47,226 nucleotides of DNA from Terrimicrobiaceae bacterium (lineage in GTDB: Bacteria > Verrucomicrobiota > Verrucomicrobiia > Chthoniobacterales > JAATET01), in the NCBI GenBank assembly GCA_028713285.1, contig JAQTOP010000017.1, positions 1-47,226 of the forward strand, read 5' to 3'. A model generated the notes under the pieces. The model saw only the letters and a list, made by a program, of their open reading frames with translations. It was not told the DNA's origin and did not search any database. Shown piece by piece: positions 7,024 through 46,848 of this stretch. The translations under genes were made by a program, and so were the position numbers. Position 1 is the first letter of the stretch, and every line of letters begins with the position of its first letter.

Positions 7024-8988
7024 ATGCGGATGGGAAAAATTGGCCATTTCATGGTCATGGCGTGCGTGGCGTTTGCCGTCGTCCCATGGGCTGACGCGAC
7101 GAATCTCGTCTTCAAGAACGGCCAGCAAATGCGGGACGTCCGCATCGTCGCGCGCACCGGGCAATTCATCTCGGTGGCGGTTGCCAATGGAATCGTTCGC
7201 TATCCGCTCGGCGCCGTGGCGACCATCGATGGCAAACCGATTGACGAACCCGCTGCGACGGCGGGCCCGGGCTCGCTTGCACCGGCCGGGTTGTCCGCGC
7301 AGGCGCCGGAACAGACCGCCGCGCCGGCAAGCGCCCCGGCGCCGGAGCCCTCCGCCAGCCCAAACGCGGCGCCTCCCGCAGCAAGCGCGGCGCCGCCGCC
7401 GGCTGTTTCGGAGCCGAAGACCGGACCCGATCGCTGGAACTTCGAACTCCTCCTCCTCGCGTTTCTCACCGTGGCCGGCGTTTGGATGCGCAGTCTGCAG
7501 GCCGTGCAGCGCGATCTCTTCGAGCGGCGCGCCGAGCCCCGCCATTGGACGATGGCCGCGCTGCTGCTGCCCGGCGTGGGCGCGGGAGCGTATTTCTTCT
7601 GGCTCCGGGCGCGGCAAAAGCTCTCCGAGATCCAGGCCCGCAAGCTCAAAGCCGCCGCAATCGCCGCAGCCGACACGCCGCCGGCTGATGGCAGCGGAAC
7701 CGGCCAGCCATTCCCCGCGTTCAACCTGTCGAAACGCTTCGATCCTGCCGCGCACCTTGCCGCAAAGGGCAGCACGCGCCAGGGCCTCACCTTTTTGGAC
7801 ACCGACCGCCAGTCCGTCGCAATCAAGGGCGACAGCGAACTCGCCTCCGGCCTCGATAACGCGAACGAGGTGCTCGAGGAGGCGCTGCTCGAAAAGGCGA
7901 GCGACATTCACATCGAGCCCGCAAGCGACAGCTACCGCGTGCGCTTCCGGCTCGATGGCATTTTGCACGAGCGCATGTCCTACGAGCCATCGGACGGCGT
8001 GCGGCTCGTCACCGCCCTCAAGTCGCTCGCCGAGATCGACGTGGCCGAAAAACGCCGCGCGCAGGATGGAAAGTTCCGCGTGCTCGCCGAGGATCGCGAG
8101 ATCGATTTCCGCGTCGCGACAGCGAATTCGATCTACGGCGAAAAGATGGTCATCCGCGTGCTCGACCACCGGGGCGGCATCTTCGACCTCACATCGCTCG
8201 GCATGTCGGAGGAAATGCTGGGCGTGTTCCAGAGCGTCCTTCACTCGAAGAACGGCATGATCCTCGCCACCGGCCCCACCGGCTCGGGAAAAACCTCGAC
8301 GCTCTACGCCGCGCTGCGCCAGCTCGACACCACGAGCCTGAACATCATGACGATCGAGGACCCGGCGGAATACGAGCTGAAGGGCGCCACCCAAATCGCC
8401 GTGAATCCCCGCGCCGGCATCACCTACGAGGCGGGGCTGCGCTCCATCCTGCGGCAGGATCCCGACGTCATCCTCGTGGGAGAAATGCGCGACGCCGAGG
8501 CCTCCGCCGTGGCCCTGCGCGCGGCGCTCACCGGCCACCTGGTGCTGAGCACGCTGCACACGAAGGACGCCATCGGCACGATTTCGCGCCTGCAGGAAAT
8601 GGGCATCGAGCGCTACCAGCTCGCCTCCGCGCTGCTTATGGTCATCGCGCAACGGCTCGTGCGCGTGCTCTGCCCCGAGTGCCGTAGCGAATACCCCGCC
8701 GTCGGGGACGAACTCGAGGATATCGGCTTCAGCTTCGAGCCGGGCCAGCCCCTCTACGCCGCGCGGGGCTGCGACGCGTGCCTCGGCACGGGCTTCCGGG
8801 GGCGCACCGGGCTCTTCGAGTTGCTCGTGCTCGACGACAACTTCCGCCAGACCATCGGCGACGGAGCGGACGAGGCGGCCATCACCGCGCTGGCCGTCGA
8901 TCGCGGATTCAAAAGCTTCCGCTACGACGGCGCGGAAAAAATTCTGCTCGGTGTGACGACCGTCGATGAGGTGCTTCAGGCCTCGTGA
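7024..8988 (+). CDS. GspE/PilB-type secretion ATPase with membrane N-terminal extension (654 aa)
   Basis: The C-terminal 400 residues are a type II secretion/type IV pilus assembly ATPase: an N2-like domain (SDIHIEPASDSYRVRFRLDG), Walker A GPTGSGKT at about 417-424, Asp box, Walker B ILVGEMRD, His box LSTLHTKDA, and a zinc-binding CPEC (550-553)/CDAC (583-586) pair. The N-terminus is atypical. It has a signal-peptide-like segment (1-25, ending ADA), a small beta-rich stretch, an Ala/Pro linker, and two hydrophobic segments at about 138-158 and 174-193. The usual N1E domain is absent. The chosen ATG (7024) begins at the signal-like segment; TTG 6997 and GTG 7021 are alternatives. A CvpA-like gene follows after 13 bases. 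No GspD, F or pilin operon is present here, so the assembly it powers is unknown. Confidence 0.85.
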   Translation: MRMGKIGHFMVMACVAFAVVPWADATNLVFKNGQQMRDVRIVARTGQFISVAVANGIVRYPLGAVATIDGKPIDEPAATAGPGSLAPAGLSAQAPEQTAAPASAPAPEPSASPNAAPPAASAAPPPAVSEPKTGPDRWNFELLLLAFLTVAGVWMRSLQAVQRDLFERRAEPRHWTMAALLLPGVGAGAYFFWLRARQKLSEIQARKLKAAAIAAADTPPADGSGTGQPFPAFNLSKRFDPAAHLAAKGSTRQGLTFLDTDRQSVAIKGDSELASGLDNANEVLEEALLEKASDIHIEPASDSYRVRFRLDGILHERMSYEPSDGVRLVTALKSLAEIDVAEKRRAQDGKFRVLAEDREIDFRVATANSIYGEKMVIRVLDHRGGIFDLTSLGMSEEMLGVFQSVLHSKNGMILATGPTGSGKTSTLYAALRQLDTTSLNIMTIEDPAEYELKGATQIAVNPRAGITYEAGLRSILRQDPDVILVGEMRDAEASAVALRAALTGHLVLSTLHTKDAIGTISRLQEMGIERYQLASALLMVIAQRLVRVLCPECRSEYPAVGDELEDIGFSFEPGQPLYAARGCDACLGTGFRGRTGLFELLVLDDNFRQTIGDGADEAAITALAVDRGFKSFRYDGAEKILLGVTTVDEVLQAS

Positions 8989-9001
8989 ACCCGACCGCCC
9001 C

Positions 9002-9619
9002 ATGAACCCTTCGGAAATCTCCATCCTGCTCATCGCCGTGCTGCCGATCCTTTACCGCGGCTGGAGCGGCTGGCAGCACGGCGCGGCCATCGAGACGCGC
9101 CATCTGCTCGTCAATCTCTTCGCGATCCTCGTCGCCATTCGTTACTGGCAGCCGTGGACGGAGCTGATCTCGCGCGGCCTGACGTTCGACCCGCGCTGGA
9201 TCGCCGCGGGCTCGTTCGTCGCGCTCTATTTCGTCGGCGCGGCGGTCGCCGGGGTGGTCGTGAAAATGAAGGCCCCTGCCTACCAGAGCGTGAAGTCGGA
9301 TTTTCCAAATCATGCGCTCGGCCTCGCGACGGGGGCATTTACCGGCGCGCTGGCCGGCGCCTGCGTGCTGTGGCTCGCGACCGTCGCGATGCCCGGGAAG
9401 TTCGACTCCTTCGCCCCGGCTCAATCGTTCGCCTCCCTGCCTCGCGACGTTTTCCAGGCGCTCGAGACCCGCGTGGCCGGAGTCGAGCCCGGGAGCGCCG
9501 CCCGCACCCGGTATCCGCAGGTCACGATGAAGGAAGCCGTTGTCGATCCGAAGGCCGGGGACGCCACGCCGGATGGCGTGGTCCTCATGCAGATGCGCGG
9601 CCAGGTCACCTGGCAGTAA
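9002..9619 (+). CDS. CvpA-like integral membrane protein (205 aa)
   Basis: A small inner-membrane protein with about four hydrophobic helices (about residues 5-20, 30-48, 62-85 and 100-125) and a hydrophilic C-terminal tail. The first half resembles the CvpA/colicin-V-production fold: a short N-terminal helix, WSGWQHG, and a membrane helix ending before a glycine-rich helix pair. CvpA proteins have no agreed biochemical role. The ATG at 9002 was chosen because it begins the first hydrophobic helix and sits 13 bases past the ATPase gene stop, suggesting one transcript. The assignment rests on topology and a weak pattern match, so it could be an unrelated membrane protein. Confidence 0.6.
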
Positions 9620-40753: not shown

Positions 40754-41605
40754 TTAGAACGTGAAGGTCACCGATCCGCCACCCCAGAAGGTGCTCGGAG
40801 TCGTGCCAACGAGGCCATACCACTGATAGCTGTAGGCCACATAAGGGGCCAGCGAGATGTTTTTGGATACTGCGATCGGCAGGGACACACCCGTCTGGAT
40901 GTTGTTCGTGCCCACGAACGGCGACGGCGGATTGTCGTGCGTCGTGAAGTTATAGCGGAAGCTCGTGCCGAACGAAACGTAAGGCGCAAGCGAGATGATG
41001 TCCTTGAAGACGGGCACCGAGCCATCCACGCGGGCTTCAAGATAGCTGGCGCACTGCTCAACATAACCACCGGTGCCGATGTTCGGGCCGACATTGAAGT
41101 AGTAGTTGAGGGCAGGCGTCACCGTGATCGAGCCAAACGCGAACTTGTAAGCCACGCCGGTGTTCACCTCATTCGAGTAGAGACCGGTCTGGTTGGCGTT
41201 GAGCAGCGCGTAGAGCGTGTAACCCAGGTGAACGGACAGGTTGCCGAAGGTGTGGGTGTAGGTCGCGATCGCGTCGAACTCCTTGTACGTGGAGTCGGTG
41301 AGACCGAAGGCCGTCCAGCCTGCGAGCGTGAGGAAGTCGTTATCCGTGAGGTTGAATGTCACACTCAGCTGGGTCCAGTAGAGACTGGAGCCGTAGCCGT
41401 TGTTGGGGTTCGGCAGCGTATTCACGCCGCGGAACATATAGAGGCTGTCCCAACCGGTGCTCAGCGAGGCTGTCCACCATTGTTTGGCCGGTTCGACGAC
41501 TTCTTTGACTTCTTTGAAGGACTTGCCGTCACCAGCGAAGAGAGCGCTGCTGGAGAGCAGAGCCGCCGTGCCGAGGACCGCAGCAAACTTTGTAGCGAGT
41601 TTCAT
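40754..41605 (-). CDS. Outer-membrane beta-barrel protein (283 aa)
   Basis: A signal peptide (about 1-24, MKLATKFAAVLGTAALLSSS and then ALFA) is followed by alternating hydrophobic and polar strands rich in Tyr, Phe, Thr, Gly and Asn. The protein ends in a C-terminal phenylalanine (GGGSVTFTF), the signal used by the BAM complex. About 12 strands can be guessed. The N-terminus of the barrel (SLSTGWDSLYMFRGVNTLPN) resembles the TorF-type putative porins. Codon and base use is smoother and less GC-rich than neighbours, and it has both a clear promoter and a strong terminator, which suggests high expression. Substrate unknown. Confidence 0.85.
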   Translation of the reverse strand: MKLATKFAAVLGTAALLSSSALFAGDGKSFKEVKEVVEPAKQWWTASLSTGWDSLYMFRGVNTLPNPNNGYGSSLYWTQLSVTFNLTDNDFLTLAGWTAFGLTDSTYKEFDAIATYTHTFGNLSVHLGYTLYALLNANQTGLYSNEVNTGVAYKFAFGSITVTPALNYYFNVGPNIGTGGYVEQCASYLEARVDGSVPVFKDIISLAPYVSFGTSFRYNFTTHDNPPSPFVGTNNIQTGVSLPIAVSKNISLAPYVAYSYQWYGLVGTTPSTFWGGGSVTFTF

Positions 41606-42910: not shown

Positions 42911-43035
42911 CCGTGCCGCACTGTAGTGGCGTTGCGAAACGCACACCATCTGAAAGTTGCGCTCCGGCCCATTCGCGCAGGCTCGCGGCGAATTCATTAG
43001 ACAAATTGCGCACGCCGTCGCGTCTCTATCTCCCG

Positions 43036-43542
43036 GTGACCTCCCGTCGGCTCGAGTCTCTTTATGACGCGCACGCGCAAAGCGTATTCGCCTTTCTGCT
43101 GCATCTCACGCGTTGCGAGGAGACCACGCGCGACCTGCTCCAGGAGGTCTTTTTGCGGCTCGCCCGGCGGCGCATTCCGCTCATTCGGAAACCCCGGCCT
43201 TATCTTCTCCGCCTCGCGCACAATGCCTGGATCGATCACGTGCGCGCCGCCGCCGCCCGCGCGCGCACCCTCGAGCGAAGCCTGGCCGACTCCGGCTGCT
43301 TCCCGCCGCCATCGCACGACGCGGAGCATGCGGAGCTCTCCGCGCTGTTGATCGCCGGGATGGCGGACCTGCCTGCGGACCAGCGCGCGGTGGTGCATTT
43401 GAAGATCTGGGACAACCTCACGTTCCGCGAAATCAGCAGCGCCCTCGGCATTCCCACCCACACGGCCGCCAGCCGCTACCGCTACGCGTTAGACAAATTG
43501 CGCGCCGCCATGCGTCCTTCCATCGAAAATGAACGCGCCTGA
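43036..43542 (+). CDS. ECF sigma factor (168 aa)
   Basis: RNA polymerase sigma factor of the extracytoplasmic-function group. Region 2 runs from about residue 7 to 75: YDAHAQSVFAFLLHLTR, DLLQEVFLRLARR (the sigma2.2-2.3 core) and YLLRLAHNAWIDHVR. Region 4 spans about 110-165: LPADQRAVVHLKIWDNLTFREIS, ALGIPTHTAASRYRYALDKLRA. The GTG at 43036 gives a normal ECF start; the upstream part of the frame overlaps the ATPase gene region on the other strand and looks non-coding. It overlaps the next gene by 14 bases and leads a four-gene plus-strand operon. Confidence 0.92.
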   Translation: MTSRRLESLYDAHAQSVFAFLLHLTRCEETTRDLLQEVFLRLARRRIPLIRKPRPYLLRLAHNAWIDHVRAAAARARTLERSLADSGCFPPPSHDAEHAELSALLIAGMADLPADQRAVVHLKIWDNLTFREISSALGIPTHTAASRYRYALDKLRAAMRPSIENERA

Positions 43543-43888
43543 GTTGGAAAAATGCCTCGCCGCGCTCACTCCGCGCCGGCTCCCGGGCGCATGGAAAGCC
43601 GGCGTCCTGGAGGGCGTGGCCGCCGCGCGACGGCCGACCGGTTTCCATCGGGCCGAGCGGCTCGCGTGGGGCGCCGTCGCCGCAACCTGGCTCGCGATTT
43701 TTGCGCTGCGCGCGACCACGCCGTTCATCCCGACACCTCCTGGACCGCCTGCAAGCGCGGCGGAGATCGCCGCGCATTGCGATGAGATACGCCGCTACGC
43801 CGCGCTGGAATTCGCGTCGCCCGAGTCCCCGCCGCCGACCCGCATCCGCATCGAAGAGGAGTTCATCCTCGTCCGCCCGCGCTCATGA
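43529..43888 (+). CDS. Probable membrane-anchored anti-sigma partner (119 aa)
   Basis: Short protein translated in overlap with the sigma factor. The N-terminal cytoplasmic part (about 1-43: LEKCLAALTPRRLPGAWKAGVLEGV) has the size and style of small anti-sigma domains seen beside ECF sigma factors in Verrucomicrobia. One membrane segment follows (about 44-63, ERLAWGAVAATWLAIFALRA), then a Pro-rich outside tail ending in EEEFILVRPRS. There is no zinc motif (no HxxxCxxC). Its function is inferred from position and topology only. Confidence 0.65.
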   Translation: MNAPELEKCLAALTPRRLPGAWKAGVLEGVAAARRPTGFHRAERLAWGAVAATWLAIFALRATTPFIPTPPGPPASAAEIAAHCDEIRRYAALEFASPESPPPTRIRIEEEFILVRPRS

Positions 43889-45321
43889 AAAAACACCTTC
43901 TCCGCATCGCCCTTGTCGGCCTTGCCGCCGCCGCCACGCTCCTCGTTCTTTTCTACGCGTGGACGGATTGGGCGGGTGCGCGCCGCTGGAAAGCCGTCGA
44001 AGCCGGGCTGCGCGCCAAGGGCGAACCGCTCACGATTGCCGAGATCGAACCGCAGCCGATTCCCGATGCCATGAATTTCGCCGCCGCGCCGATCTTCGCC
44101 GAAATCGGCCGGATTCACGACCGGAAGCAATGGCGCCTGTCCGCCATCCACGGCTTCACCGGCGCTTCCAGGAATGGCTCTTCGCCGCTTGCGAATGCCG
44201 CCCGCAAGGTCGATCCAGCCTTCGCAGGTTCCGATGCCGATGCCGCGCGGGTCATCCTCGACCAGACGGCAAAATGGAAACCGCTCCTCGACGAAGTGCG
44301 CGAGGCGGCCAGACGCCCCGGCACCGTCTGGCCTTCCGATTACCGCGAGGGTTTCCGAATGAGAGTCGACCACATCCAGCCACTCCTGGCCCTGGGGCAG
44401 GCGCTCTCGGTGGAAGCCCGGGCGCATCTCGAGCTCGGGGATTCATCCGCTGCGGTTGCCGACTTCCAGCTCATCCTGAATCTTGCCAGCCGCTGCGCAG
44501 AACCGCGTGTCGTGATTTCCCACCTCCTCCAACAAGCGCTGGTCCGCCTGGACGTGGAAGTCGTGCGATTCGGCCTGGAGCGCCACGCTTGGACAGCCGC
44601 AGCGCTCGAGACGATCCAGCGAGAGCTGGCCGGCATCCCGCTCGCATCCGGTCTCGCCATGGCCCTCCGAGGCGAGCGGGTGATCTTTACCGAGTGGCTC
44701 CCTCGACTCTCCGCGCAGGGAATCCCCGACGTGCTGAACCTCGGTGAGCCCCGAACCAAGGCAGATGGGAGCCGCCAGTGGGTCGGCATGGCTTGGGCAC
44801 TGTATCCAGCCGGATGGATCAATAAAGACCGCAGCGCCTACGCAGAGTCGCTGCAGCCGGTCATCGAATGGCTTGCCGGGGAGAATTCCAACCGCCCCGA
44901 ATCCATCGTTCACCCCGACGAAACATTTCGGAAAAGGATGGCCGCTCCATTTGCGCCCTTGCCCGAACTCTTTACGTCGATGGCTCTTCCCGCGCTGCTT
45001 ATTTCAGTCCCCAGAGCCATCCATGCCCAGGCCATGATCGACGAAGCCCGCATCGCCTGCGGCATTGAGCGATACCGGCTGGCTCGCGGATCCCTTCCCG
45101 CGACGCTGGAGGCTTTGCATCCGGAATTTCTTTCCGGAATGCCACATGATCCGATCAACGGCGGACCCTTCCACTATCGAGTCACCGGCGCCGATTCCTA
45201 TATCCTTTACAGCGTCGGATGGAATGGCGTCGATGACGGCGGCAGCGACAAGAGGCCCTCGCCGAAGGCTGCCGACAAAGCCGAGGATTGGGTTTGGAAA
45301 ATGGGCGACGCCGCGACGTAG
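43885..45321 (+). CDS. Membrane-anchored paralog 1 (478 aa)
   Basis: An N-terminal membrane segment (about 5-27, LLRIALVGLAAAATLLVLFYAW), then a large helical extracytoplasmic part. Conserved blocks shared with the gene at 45406: GEPLTIAEIEPQPIPDAMNF, AAAPIFAE, RGERVIFTEW, MAWALYPAGWINKDRSAYAE, RIACGIERYRLARGSLPATLE and a C-terminal block DSYILYSVGWNGVDDGGSDK that resembles the calcium-binding tail of GspG-like pseudopilins. It overlaps the anti-sigma-like gene by four bases (ATGA). No enzymatic motif is recognised. Its expression is probably tied to the ECF sigma factor. Confidence 0.75.
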   Translation: MKKHLLRIALVGLAAAATLLVLFYAWTDWAGARRWKAVEAGLRAKGEPLTIAEIEPQPIPDAMNFAAAPIFAEIGRIHDRKQWRLSAIHGFTGASRNGSSPLANAARKVDPAFAGSDADAARVILDQTAKWKPLLDEVREAARRPGTVWPSDYREGFRMRVDHIQPLLALGQALSVEARAHLELGDSSAAVADFQLILNLASRCAEPRVVISHLLQQALVRLDVEVVRFGLERHAWTAAALETIQRELAGIPLASGLAMALRGERVIFTEWLPRLSAQGIPDVLNLGEPRTKADGSRQWVGMAWALYPAGWINKDRSAYAESLQPVIEWLAGENSNRPESIVHPDETFRKRMAAPFAPLPELFTSMALPALLISVPRAIHAQAMIDEARIACGIERYRLARGSLPATLEALHPEFLSGMPHDPINGGPFHYRVTGADSYILYSVGWNGVDDGGSDKRPSPKAADKAEDWVWKMGDAAT

Positions 45322-45362
45322 GACGGATTAGAATTCGACCGGCGGCGGCGGGCGCGCTACCT

Positions 45363-45401
45363 TTCAGCCGGCGCCATCCCGGGCGCCGCAACCGGGCTGA
45401 A
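45363..45401. repeat. Nested inverted repeat before the second paralog
   Basis: TTCAGCC (45363-45369) pairs with GGCTGAA (45395-45401), enclosing GGCGCC (45370-45375)/GGCGCC (45382-45387). The outer arm ends four bases before the ATG at 45406, so in RNA it would cover the ribosome-binding site of the second paralog. No T-run follows. Confidence 0.45.
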
Positions 45402-45405
45402 GAAT

Positions 45406-46848
45406 ATGCGACGCGCTCTGCTCCTCGTTTTGGCCGCGCCCCTGCTGTTGCCCGCGCTCGCCGCGGCCTGGTTTTACGGCTACGAGAATTGGACCGGCGG
45501 CGCGGTCTGGCGGCAGGCCGAGGCGGCCCTGCAGGCGGCGGGCGAACCCCTCACCGTCGATGCCATGCGGCCACAGCCGGTGCCCGATGCGCGAAACATG
45601 GCCGCCGCGCCGATCTTTCGCGAGCTGTTCACGTTCTACAGTCCCCGCCGGGCCAGCGTCTATGAACTCAAGCTGCCGCCGCCGGCGCGCCCGCCGGCCG
45701 ATGCCGACGAATCCGCGCTCGTCGCCCTCGCCCGGCGCTTTGACCCGGAGTTCGACGGCGACGCGCCGGCCGCCGCCCACGTCGTGCTGGAAGGTCTCGC
45801 GCCGATGGAGCCGCTCCTGAACGCGATCCGCCTTGCCGCCGCGCGCCCCGATTCGGTGTGGCCCGAGAAATCCGCCCTCGGCCTCGAGGCGCCGCAGACC
45901 TTCCTCTGGCCGCTCAAGCGCACGTCCGAAGTGCTCGCCGCCCGCGCCACCGCCGCGGTCGCCGGGCGTCAATCCGCAAGCGCGCTGGCGGATTTTGAAC
46001 TCATCGCGCGCCTCGCCGGGCGGTCCAACCAGCCGCCCATGCTGGCGGGCTGCTTCGCCGGCCAGATGATGCTCGGCCATGCGCTCGACATCGCGGGCGA
46101 CGGGCTCGCGCAGCGTGCGTGGTCCGATGCCGACCTCGCCGACATCGAGGCCGCGCTCGGCGGCTTCCATCCGCTAGACGACTTCCGCGAAGGCGTGCGC
46201 GGCGAACGCGCGCTCTTCCTCACGTCGCCCGAGGCGCTGAATGCCCGGGCGGAGGCGCTCTTCACCTTCGTCGATTTTCGCTCGCGGATTTCCGAATGGC
46301 TCACGAGCACGCTGTGCCGCGTCGTCTGGGCCCTGCGCCCATCGGGATGGGTGCAGCGGGATCGGGCGAACTACGCGACACTCACACAGGACTGGCTCGG
46401 CCTCGTCATTCACAACGGCTTCATCCGCCCGTGGGCGCTGGCCGAGTGGAGCGCCCGCATCGGCGCGGTGCGGAACGACCCAATGGAATTTTTCCGCACC
46501 CCGCTCACCGTCCTCGTGCTGCCCACCTTCGCGAACGCCGCCCGCGCAGCCGCCTATACGCAGGCTCGACTCGACTTCGCCCGCATCGCCTGCGCGATCG
46601 AACGGCACCGCCGCGCCACCGGACACGTGCCCGGCGAGCTCGCCGAACTCGCCCCGCGGTGGATCGACCGGATTCCGCGCGACGTGATCGGCGGCGGATC
46701 CTATTTTTACCGCGCCACGGGCCCGGACGACTACACGCTCTACGGCAGGGGCTGGAACGCCCGGGACGACGGCGGCAGCAGCGCGAATACGAGCCCGCTG
46801 CTCGGCCCGGCGACCGCGGACGATTGGGTGTGGACGGCGGCGCGGTAG
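45406..46848 (+). CDS. Membrane-anchored paralog 2 (480 aa)
   Basis: Second copy of the family at 43885-45321: an N-terminal membrane segment (about 4-25, LLLVLAAPLLLPALAAAWFYG), then GEPLTVDAMRPQPVPDARNM, AAAPIFRE, RGERALFLTSP, VVWALRPSGWVQRDRANYAT, RIACAIERHRRATGHVPGEL and the terminal YTLYGRGWNARDDGGSSANT. The copies have diverged widely outside these blocks, so the duplication is old. The start lies four bases past a nested hairpin at 45363-45401, which could regulate its translation. It ends just before the convergent aldehyde dehydrogenase gene. Confidence 0.75.
   Translation: MRRALLLVLAAPLLLPALAAAWFYGYENWTGGAVWRQAEAALQAAGEPLTVDAMRPQPVPDARNMAAAPIFRELFTFYSPRRASVYELKLPPPARPPADADESALVALARRFDPEFDGDAPAAAHVVLEGLAPMEPLLNAIRLAAARPDSVWPEKSALGLEAPQTFLWPLKRTSEVLAARATAAVAGRQSASALADFELIARLAGRSNQPPMLAGCFAGQMMLGHALDIAGDGLAQRAWSDADLADIEAALGGFHPLDDFREGVRGERALFLTSPEALNARAEALFTFVDFRSRISEWLTSTLCRVVWALRPSGWVQRDRANYATLTQDWLGLVIHNGFIRPWALAEWSARIGAVRNDPMEFFRTPLTVLVLPTFANAARAAAYTQARLDFARIACAIERHRRATGHVPGELAELAPRWIDRIPRDVIGGGSYFYRATGPDDYTLYGRGWNARDDGGSSANTSPLLGPATADDWVWTAAR

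Follow-up and report, generated by a model that had tools for sequence, protein, structure and literature searches.

A Verrucomicrobiota sigma factor operon with a promoter-like element repeated inside the sigma coding sequence

In a 47,226-nucleotide stretch of DNA from a Terrimicrobiaceae bacterium (GenBank assembly GCA_028713285.1, contig JAQTOP010000017.1; the whole stretch is referred to as the window), four genes on the forward strand between positions 43036 and 46848 encode an extracytoplasmic function (ECF) sigma factor, a small protein (ANT) which is probably its anti-sigma factor, and two paralogous envelope proteins, PA and PB, of an unnamed family which we refer to as P. We read this operon, with a probability of about 0.72, as an autoregulated ECF/anti-sigma module of Verrucomicrobiota, the main output of which is P, and in which a second promoter, written into the same bases as the end of the sigma factor, boosts the anti-sigma factor and P.

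A sigma-centred operon conserved across the phylum

The original prediction, of four genes coupled by overlaps or a short gap, agrees with the coordinates: the sigma gene (43036–43542, GTG start, 168 aa) overlaps the ANT gene (43529–43888, ATG start, 119 aa) by 14 bases, ANT in turn shares an ATGA overlap with PA (43885–45321, ATG start, 478 aa), and PB (45406–46848, ATG start, 480 aa) follows after an 84-base gap. The sigma protein possesses regions 2 and 4 only, joined by a short linker, with PF04542, PF04545 and PF08281 all above their cut-offs and a TIGR02937 score of 69.4 bits (cut-off 42.9), which is the composition of an ECF sigma factor and bears out its earlier identification.

As a diverse alignment of P held no patterns conserved enough for scanning, we took the sigma alignment to seed a scan of bacterial genomes with sigma alone, using patterns which excluded the stretch holding the internal element described below, and kept the best 80 of 555 candidate loci, as judged by their similarity to the window sigma. 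Of these 80, nearly all were labelled Verrucomicrobiota. The order sigma, small protein, P was present in 75 of the 75 loci with sufficient downstream DNA, the remaining five contigs ending too early for gene order to be scored, and this supports the proposal of an ECF operon in which a probable anti-sigma partner is joined by an envelope family without a name. A contig scan of genomes with PB as a single-protein query gave no matches. Profile searches detected P in 47 of 213 genomes of the host order and in 155 of 388 genomes sampled across the phylum, many of the distant matches being partial, and an adjoining sigma and small protein, in the same gene order, were present at 23 of the 49 P loci which we fetched from the order. 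The constant linkage which had been anticipated is therefore one-sided, in that sigmas of this group always occur with P, yet P does not always occur with a sigma.

Two further kinds of sigma gene were seen. At five loci (L111, L134, L138, L156 and L171) the main module is followed by another ECF sigma, which is more divergent and mostly has its own small protein or P; this ties P to more than one ECF subgroup. At L255 (G055 contig 31), and also at L237/L238, the sigma reading frame extends to about 735 codons and seems to be fused to a long C-terminal part, with the internal element retained.

One promoter-like element in two places

The element consists of TAGACAAA at −35 and GCGTC at −10, separated by 14 bases. 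Predicted promoter 1, which would make the sigma factor autoregulatory, occupies 42998–43024 of the forward strand (−35 at 42998–43005, −10 at 43020–43024) and ends 11 bases ahead of the sigma GTG. Predicted promoter 2 occupies 43490–43516 of the same strand (−35 at 43490–43497, −10 at 43512–43516), and has the same spacing; it falls at the 3′ end of the sigma gene, within the coding sequence, 12 bases before the start of ANT, where it overlies the codons for LDKLR...RP at the end of sigma region 4. The −35 part of both is a 15-base exact repeat, TTAGACAAATTGCGC, found at 42997 and 43489. Of 95 nonredundant sigma genes, 83 had the element upstream when a single mismatch was allowed, compared to 0.05 predicted from shuffled sequences, and its spacer was 14 bases in 76 nonredundant loci. 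Typical ECF promoters have AAC at −35 and CGT at −10 (PMC8103513), the latter being included in GCGTC.

The internal copy was exact in 69 of the same 95 genes and carried one mismatch in seven more, whilst synonymous recoding with the codon usage of each locus predicts 0.1 exact and 2.3 one-mismatch copies. Codon choice at the site is unusual: NTA triplets were used at the L/I/V codon in 61 of 77 cases, compared to 87 of 2959 elsewhere (Fisher p = 7e-71), and the arginine at the internal −10 was encoded by CGT in 66 of 75, although CGC prevails elsewhere. On the strength of the sequence comparisons we conclude that the protein sequence does not by itself account for the internal copy. Neither are the copies a recent duplication, as the spacers of the two copies of one locus (likeness 0.37) are no more alike than spacers between loci (0.36). 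The internal copy is missing from some Verrucomicrobiaceae, some members of family f4, distant classes and a few others. Related sigmas in family f11 end in a YALAALKK-like sequence, not YALDKLR, and have no internal copy but keep the upstream element, which implies an association between LDKLR and the internal promoter.

We searched for the element beyond these sites. The 3.53-Mb source genome contains two exact matches, both in the operon, and a regulon beyond the operon was rejected there, since the five one-mismatch matches are near the control number of three. The named loci, 917 kb in all, contain 64 exact copies inside and 48 upstream of sigma, the only two other copies being one ahead of and one within the frameshifted sigma of L134. 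The element preceded none of 118 P genes in operons and one of 50 other P genes (at L073). The suggestion that the sigma factor controls extracytoplasmic proteins of the P kind is thereby narrowed, as the predicted promoter occurs essentially nowhere but at the operon itself. Across the host order there were roughly 120 exact matches, compared to about 14 for the reversed pattern; many of them fall in family f11, where the examples checked mostly precede a related ECF sigma, and the f11 loci we read through encode this related sigma, then a similar small membrane protein, then a PDZ-domain protein in place of P. Such loci with the element before the related sigma include L252 (G146), L253 (G141), L254 (G143) and L259 (G124); in L252 and L253 the small membrane protein and then the PDZ-domain protein follow, again with no internal copy, and a similar protein is also present in L259.

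The start codons lie close behind the −10, at a median of 13 bases from GCGTC for sigma and 19 for the small gene, and a Shine-Dalgarno-like site was found at only 8 of 92 sigma starts, which hints that the mRNA is leaderless or nearly so, with very short leaders.

Beyond the operon reading itself we lean, with modest confidence, towards a bolder proposal: that in a large part of Verrucomicrobiota the bases for the end of sigma region 4 code dually, for protein and for a near-perfect copy of the very promoter which region 4 recognises, that DNA-level selection maintains this copy, which in part sets the residues LDKLR...RP, and that it raises the anti-sigma factor and the output over sigma, the only output being P, an envelope family with a new fold.

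Proteins of the module and a proposed mechanism

PA and PB share 33% identity over 459 aligned residues (E = 2e-74), along with all of the sequence blocks listed in the original prediction, which upholds their paralogy, and as they occupy separate genus-level clades in the tree, the split between them is older than the genus. Searches of Pfam and NCBIfam with PA and PB gave no family, just weak GspG matches and noise, and PADLOC gave nothing relevant, so P was rejected as a known family; a DUF3253 match of PA (E = 0.04) was dropped as its relatives did not reproduce it. An AlphaFold2 model of PA, built from 81 window and fetched sequences, is confident (predicted local distance difference test score, pLDDT, 90.7; predicted template modelling score 0.90) and consists of a long N-terminal helix (residues 2–44, hydrophobic in its first half), an all-helical body and a small C-terminal beta domain. 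A Foldseek search against solved structures returned a best E of 0.12 with low TM-scores, i.e. no counterpart in the PDB, and together with the profile searches this is consistent with an unnamed family.

The likeness of the C-terminus to GspG, the major pseudopilin of type II secretion, which had been noticed by eye, holds at the profile level. The sole match of the P family profile in the PDB is the GspG structure 2kep (E = 0.004, profile positions 405–475), and TIGR01710 matches 13 of 47 P relatives (best 2e-4), the window protein scoring far below the cut-off. In PA the corresponding segment lies at 45046–45303 on the forward strand (residues about 388–473), and its acidic positions D450, D451 and D468 are 99%, 90% and 100% conserved, respectively, in the 81 sequences. 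The resemblance covers the last about 90 residues, including the DDGG...DWxW region; otherwise P is three to four times longer than GspG and has a large helical body. Inspection of the N-termini of PA (MKKHLLRIALVGLAAAATLLVLFYAW) and PB (MRRALLLVLAAPLLLPALAAAWFYGYENW) revealed no prepilin leader (Gly cleavage site, Glu at +5), and P is therefore not a pseudopilin; with only this tail in common, and the prepilin cleavage/methylation signal absent, the secretion system which had been considered is not indicated. We predict from the model that P is a membrane-anchored periplasmic envelope protein of new fold with a GspG-like tail, which, at a guess, possibly binds calcium. At L070 (G022 contig 62), with up to four copies around a single sigma, and at L061 (G085 contig 2), three or four P genes stand in tandem around a sigma module.

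Class II anti-sigma factors such as CnrY have a short N-terminal domain of two helices, whilst class I domains have four (PMC7406223). The AlphaFold2 model of ANT (pLDDT 82) has helices at 3–12, 20–33, 41–63 (transmembrane) and 77–96, a predicted layout of two short cytosolic helices, one transmembrane helix and a short periplasmic helix, which corresponds to class II and not to the four-helix N-terminal domain of class I. The first 30 residues are its best-conserved part. Pfam and NCBIfam gave no family match for the window protein. From its sequence and model, ANT is probably an anti-sigma factor, and we keep this role at probable as the family matches described below are weak and the coevolution signal between sigma and ANT did not exceed permutations.

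We infer the following mechanism. ANT would keep the sigma factor inactive through its two short cytosolic helices, in the class II style of CnrY, until an envelope signal, probably sensed by the periplasmic part of ANT and/or by P, frees it; the freed sigma would then recognise TAGACAAA-N14-GCGTC at two sites, one ahead of the sigma gene and the other within its coding sequence, just before ANT. Promoter 1 would amplify the entire operon, and promoter 2 would add ANT and P without extra sigma, giving damped feedback and more output. As no other strong promoter copy was found, P is most likely the main output, although it may also be a sensor, and we count the retention of P alone where sigma and ANT are gone as support for a module with P as output.

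Alternative readings and known systems

Two alternatives concern the element. That the internal TAGACAAA...GCGTC reflects constraint on the protein, or codon bias, where the C-terminus of sigma is encoded, and is not a promoter, would fit its constant frame over the conserved LDKLR...RP, but this is very improbable in the light of 69 exact copies seen against 0.1 predicted by recoding, the choice of very rare NTA codons, an element and spacing identical to those of the intergenic copy, and the joint absence of the internal copy and the LDKLR residues in the related sigma group. We also think it improbable, to a lesser degree, that the element is an RNA element or the site of a separate transcription factor and not a promoter of the module sigma: a −35 unusual for ECF factors and start codons so near to GCGTC (medians of 13 and 19 bases), with scant room for a leader, speak for it, yet it has two blocks with a fixed 14-base spacer and CGT at −10, and it stands in the correct orientation ahead of ECF sigma genes of two groups.

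The others concern the proteins. ANT could be an assembly partner of P, sigma being controlled by its level alone, and the lack of confident anti-sigma homology and of coevolution above permutations would suit this, but we regard it as unlikely, because ANT follows sigma in all scored loci, a similar small protein follows the related sigma where a PDZ protein replaces P, the short cytosolic N-terminus is the most conserved part of ANT, and NF052375 anti-sigma matches exist, if weak. A more serious possibility, still clearly less probable than the reading of P as output, is that P is the sensor, its periplasmic body binding a ligand or metal and controlling ANT as CnrX does in CnrYXH, with the true targets elsewhere under weaker promoters. 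The fixed order sigma–ANT–P, with P always present when loci are sampled by their sigma, the anchor at the N-terminus of P and the conserved acidic residues in its C-terminal domain, and the third-gene PDZ protein of the related sigma group, which is also suited to periplasmic sensing, are in its favour; against it, P is often present without sigma and ANT, its tandem duplication (up to four copies around one sigma at L070) is more output-like, and there are no other strong promoter copies to serve as the real targets.

Several observations weigh against our reading of an autoregulated module with P as output. The −35 is GACAAA and lacks the AAC typical of ECF promoters, and there may be a wider regulon with more degenerate promoters. 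NF052375 ('anti-sigma factor') matches ANT only weakly: 8 of 55 members gave a match, and the best of these (5e-6) stays below the cut-off. ANT gave no relevant sequence match and no fold match in the PDB, both searches being limited by its short helices, and sigma–ANT coevolution was not above permutations. Finally, 26 of the 49 fetched P loci of the order are without a sigma, some of them at contig ends, which implies roles of P outside the module.

One precedent for the circuit is sigmaE of Escherichia coli, where rpoE P lies upstream of the sigma gene and rseA P3 lies inside rpoE and serves rseABC (PMC8595263). Both arrangements share a sigma-dependent promoter upstream and a second inside the sigma coding sequence for negative regulators and downstream genes, that of Verrucomicrobiota being predicted. 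In E. coli, P3 is >230 bases before rseA, with a 228-base leader, whilst the window copy lies over sigma4 codons, 12 bases before the anti-sigma gene, and neither the sequences nor the third genes are related. The regulon of sigmaE is wide, whereas that of the module sigma seems limited to the operon.

ANT resembles CnrY in being a short bitopic anti-sigma candidate with two cytosolic helices (binding mode: PMC7406223). No sequence match to CnrY was found, and gene order differs from that of CnrYXH. In CnrYXH the third protein is membrane-anchored and periplasmic, as is predicted for P, but CnrX is a small metal sensor, whilst P has about 480 aa and a different fold. Class I anti-sigma factors (RseA, ChrR and others) likewise adjoin an ECF sigma gene, and many are membrane proteins, but they have a four-helix domain in place of the two short helices predicted before the membrane helix of ANT.

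A literature search on Verrucomicrobia ECF groups, intragenic promoters and the motif did not reveal a description of the system, although the 2021 reclassification of ECF factors in Nucleic Acids Research lay outside this search and a group number may exist. The parts are of known kinds; the novelty lies in the P family, in a module that recurs across the phylum, and in the predicted dual-coded promoter. The module would give Verrucomicrobiota, a phylum with little regulatory biology, a defined and testable signalling system with a sigma, a probable brake, a promoter consensus sharp enough for reporters, and an output. With the dual-coded promoter we have a clear example of the same nucleotides being selected both for DNA regulation and for the protein they encode. 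That it occurs in a lineage far from E. coli rpoE/rseA P3 suggests that autoregulated ECF switches in general resort to extra sigma-driven expression of the anti-sigma factor. With P comes an envelope family that had no name, the confident model of which resembles no solved structure.

Genomic neighbourhood and close relatives

Upstream of the operon lies a divergent ABC-transporter ATPase gene, which, judged against relatives, probably starts at about 42910 and not at 42997, and downstream lies a convergent gene, named by inspection as aldehyde-dehydrogenase-like. Among three congeneric genomes compared, G001 has all four genes at the equivalent place, whilst in G002 and G003 PB alone remains at this locus and sigma and ANT are gone. 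In G001 and G003 a second locus of the genus, flanked by a GldA-like ABC gene and a 2-oxoglutarate-dehydrogenase-like gene (both named by inspection), contains sigma, the small protein and a pair of P genes; in G002 and the source genome (G000) it contains the last P alone. The gene content at both loci implies that sigma, the small protein and the first P are lost jointly, and that the last P is able to persist alone.

Damaged copies were also seen: the small protein of L024 (G001, about 8673–9039, − strand) contains a frameshift or stop, as do the sigma genes of L059 (about 7703–7733) and L134 (about 1646–1650), representing either decaying modules or assembly errors. On the reverse strand of the window, at 40754–41605, a gene for a 283-aa predicted secreted protein (MKLATKFAAVLGTAALLSSSALFAGDGKSFKE...), for which Pfam gave no match, is conserved beside the operon in four of four genomes of the genus.

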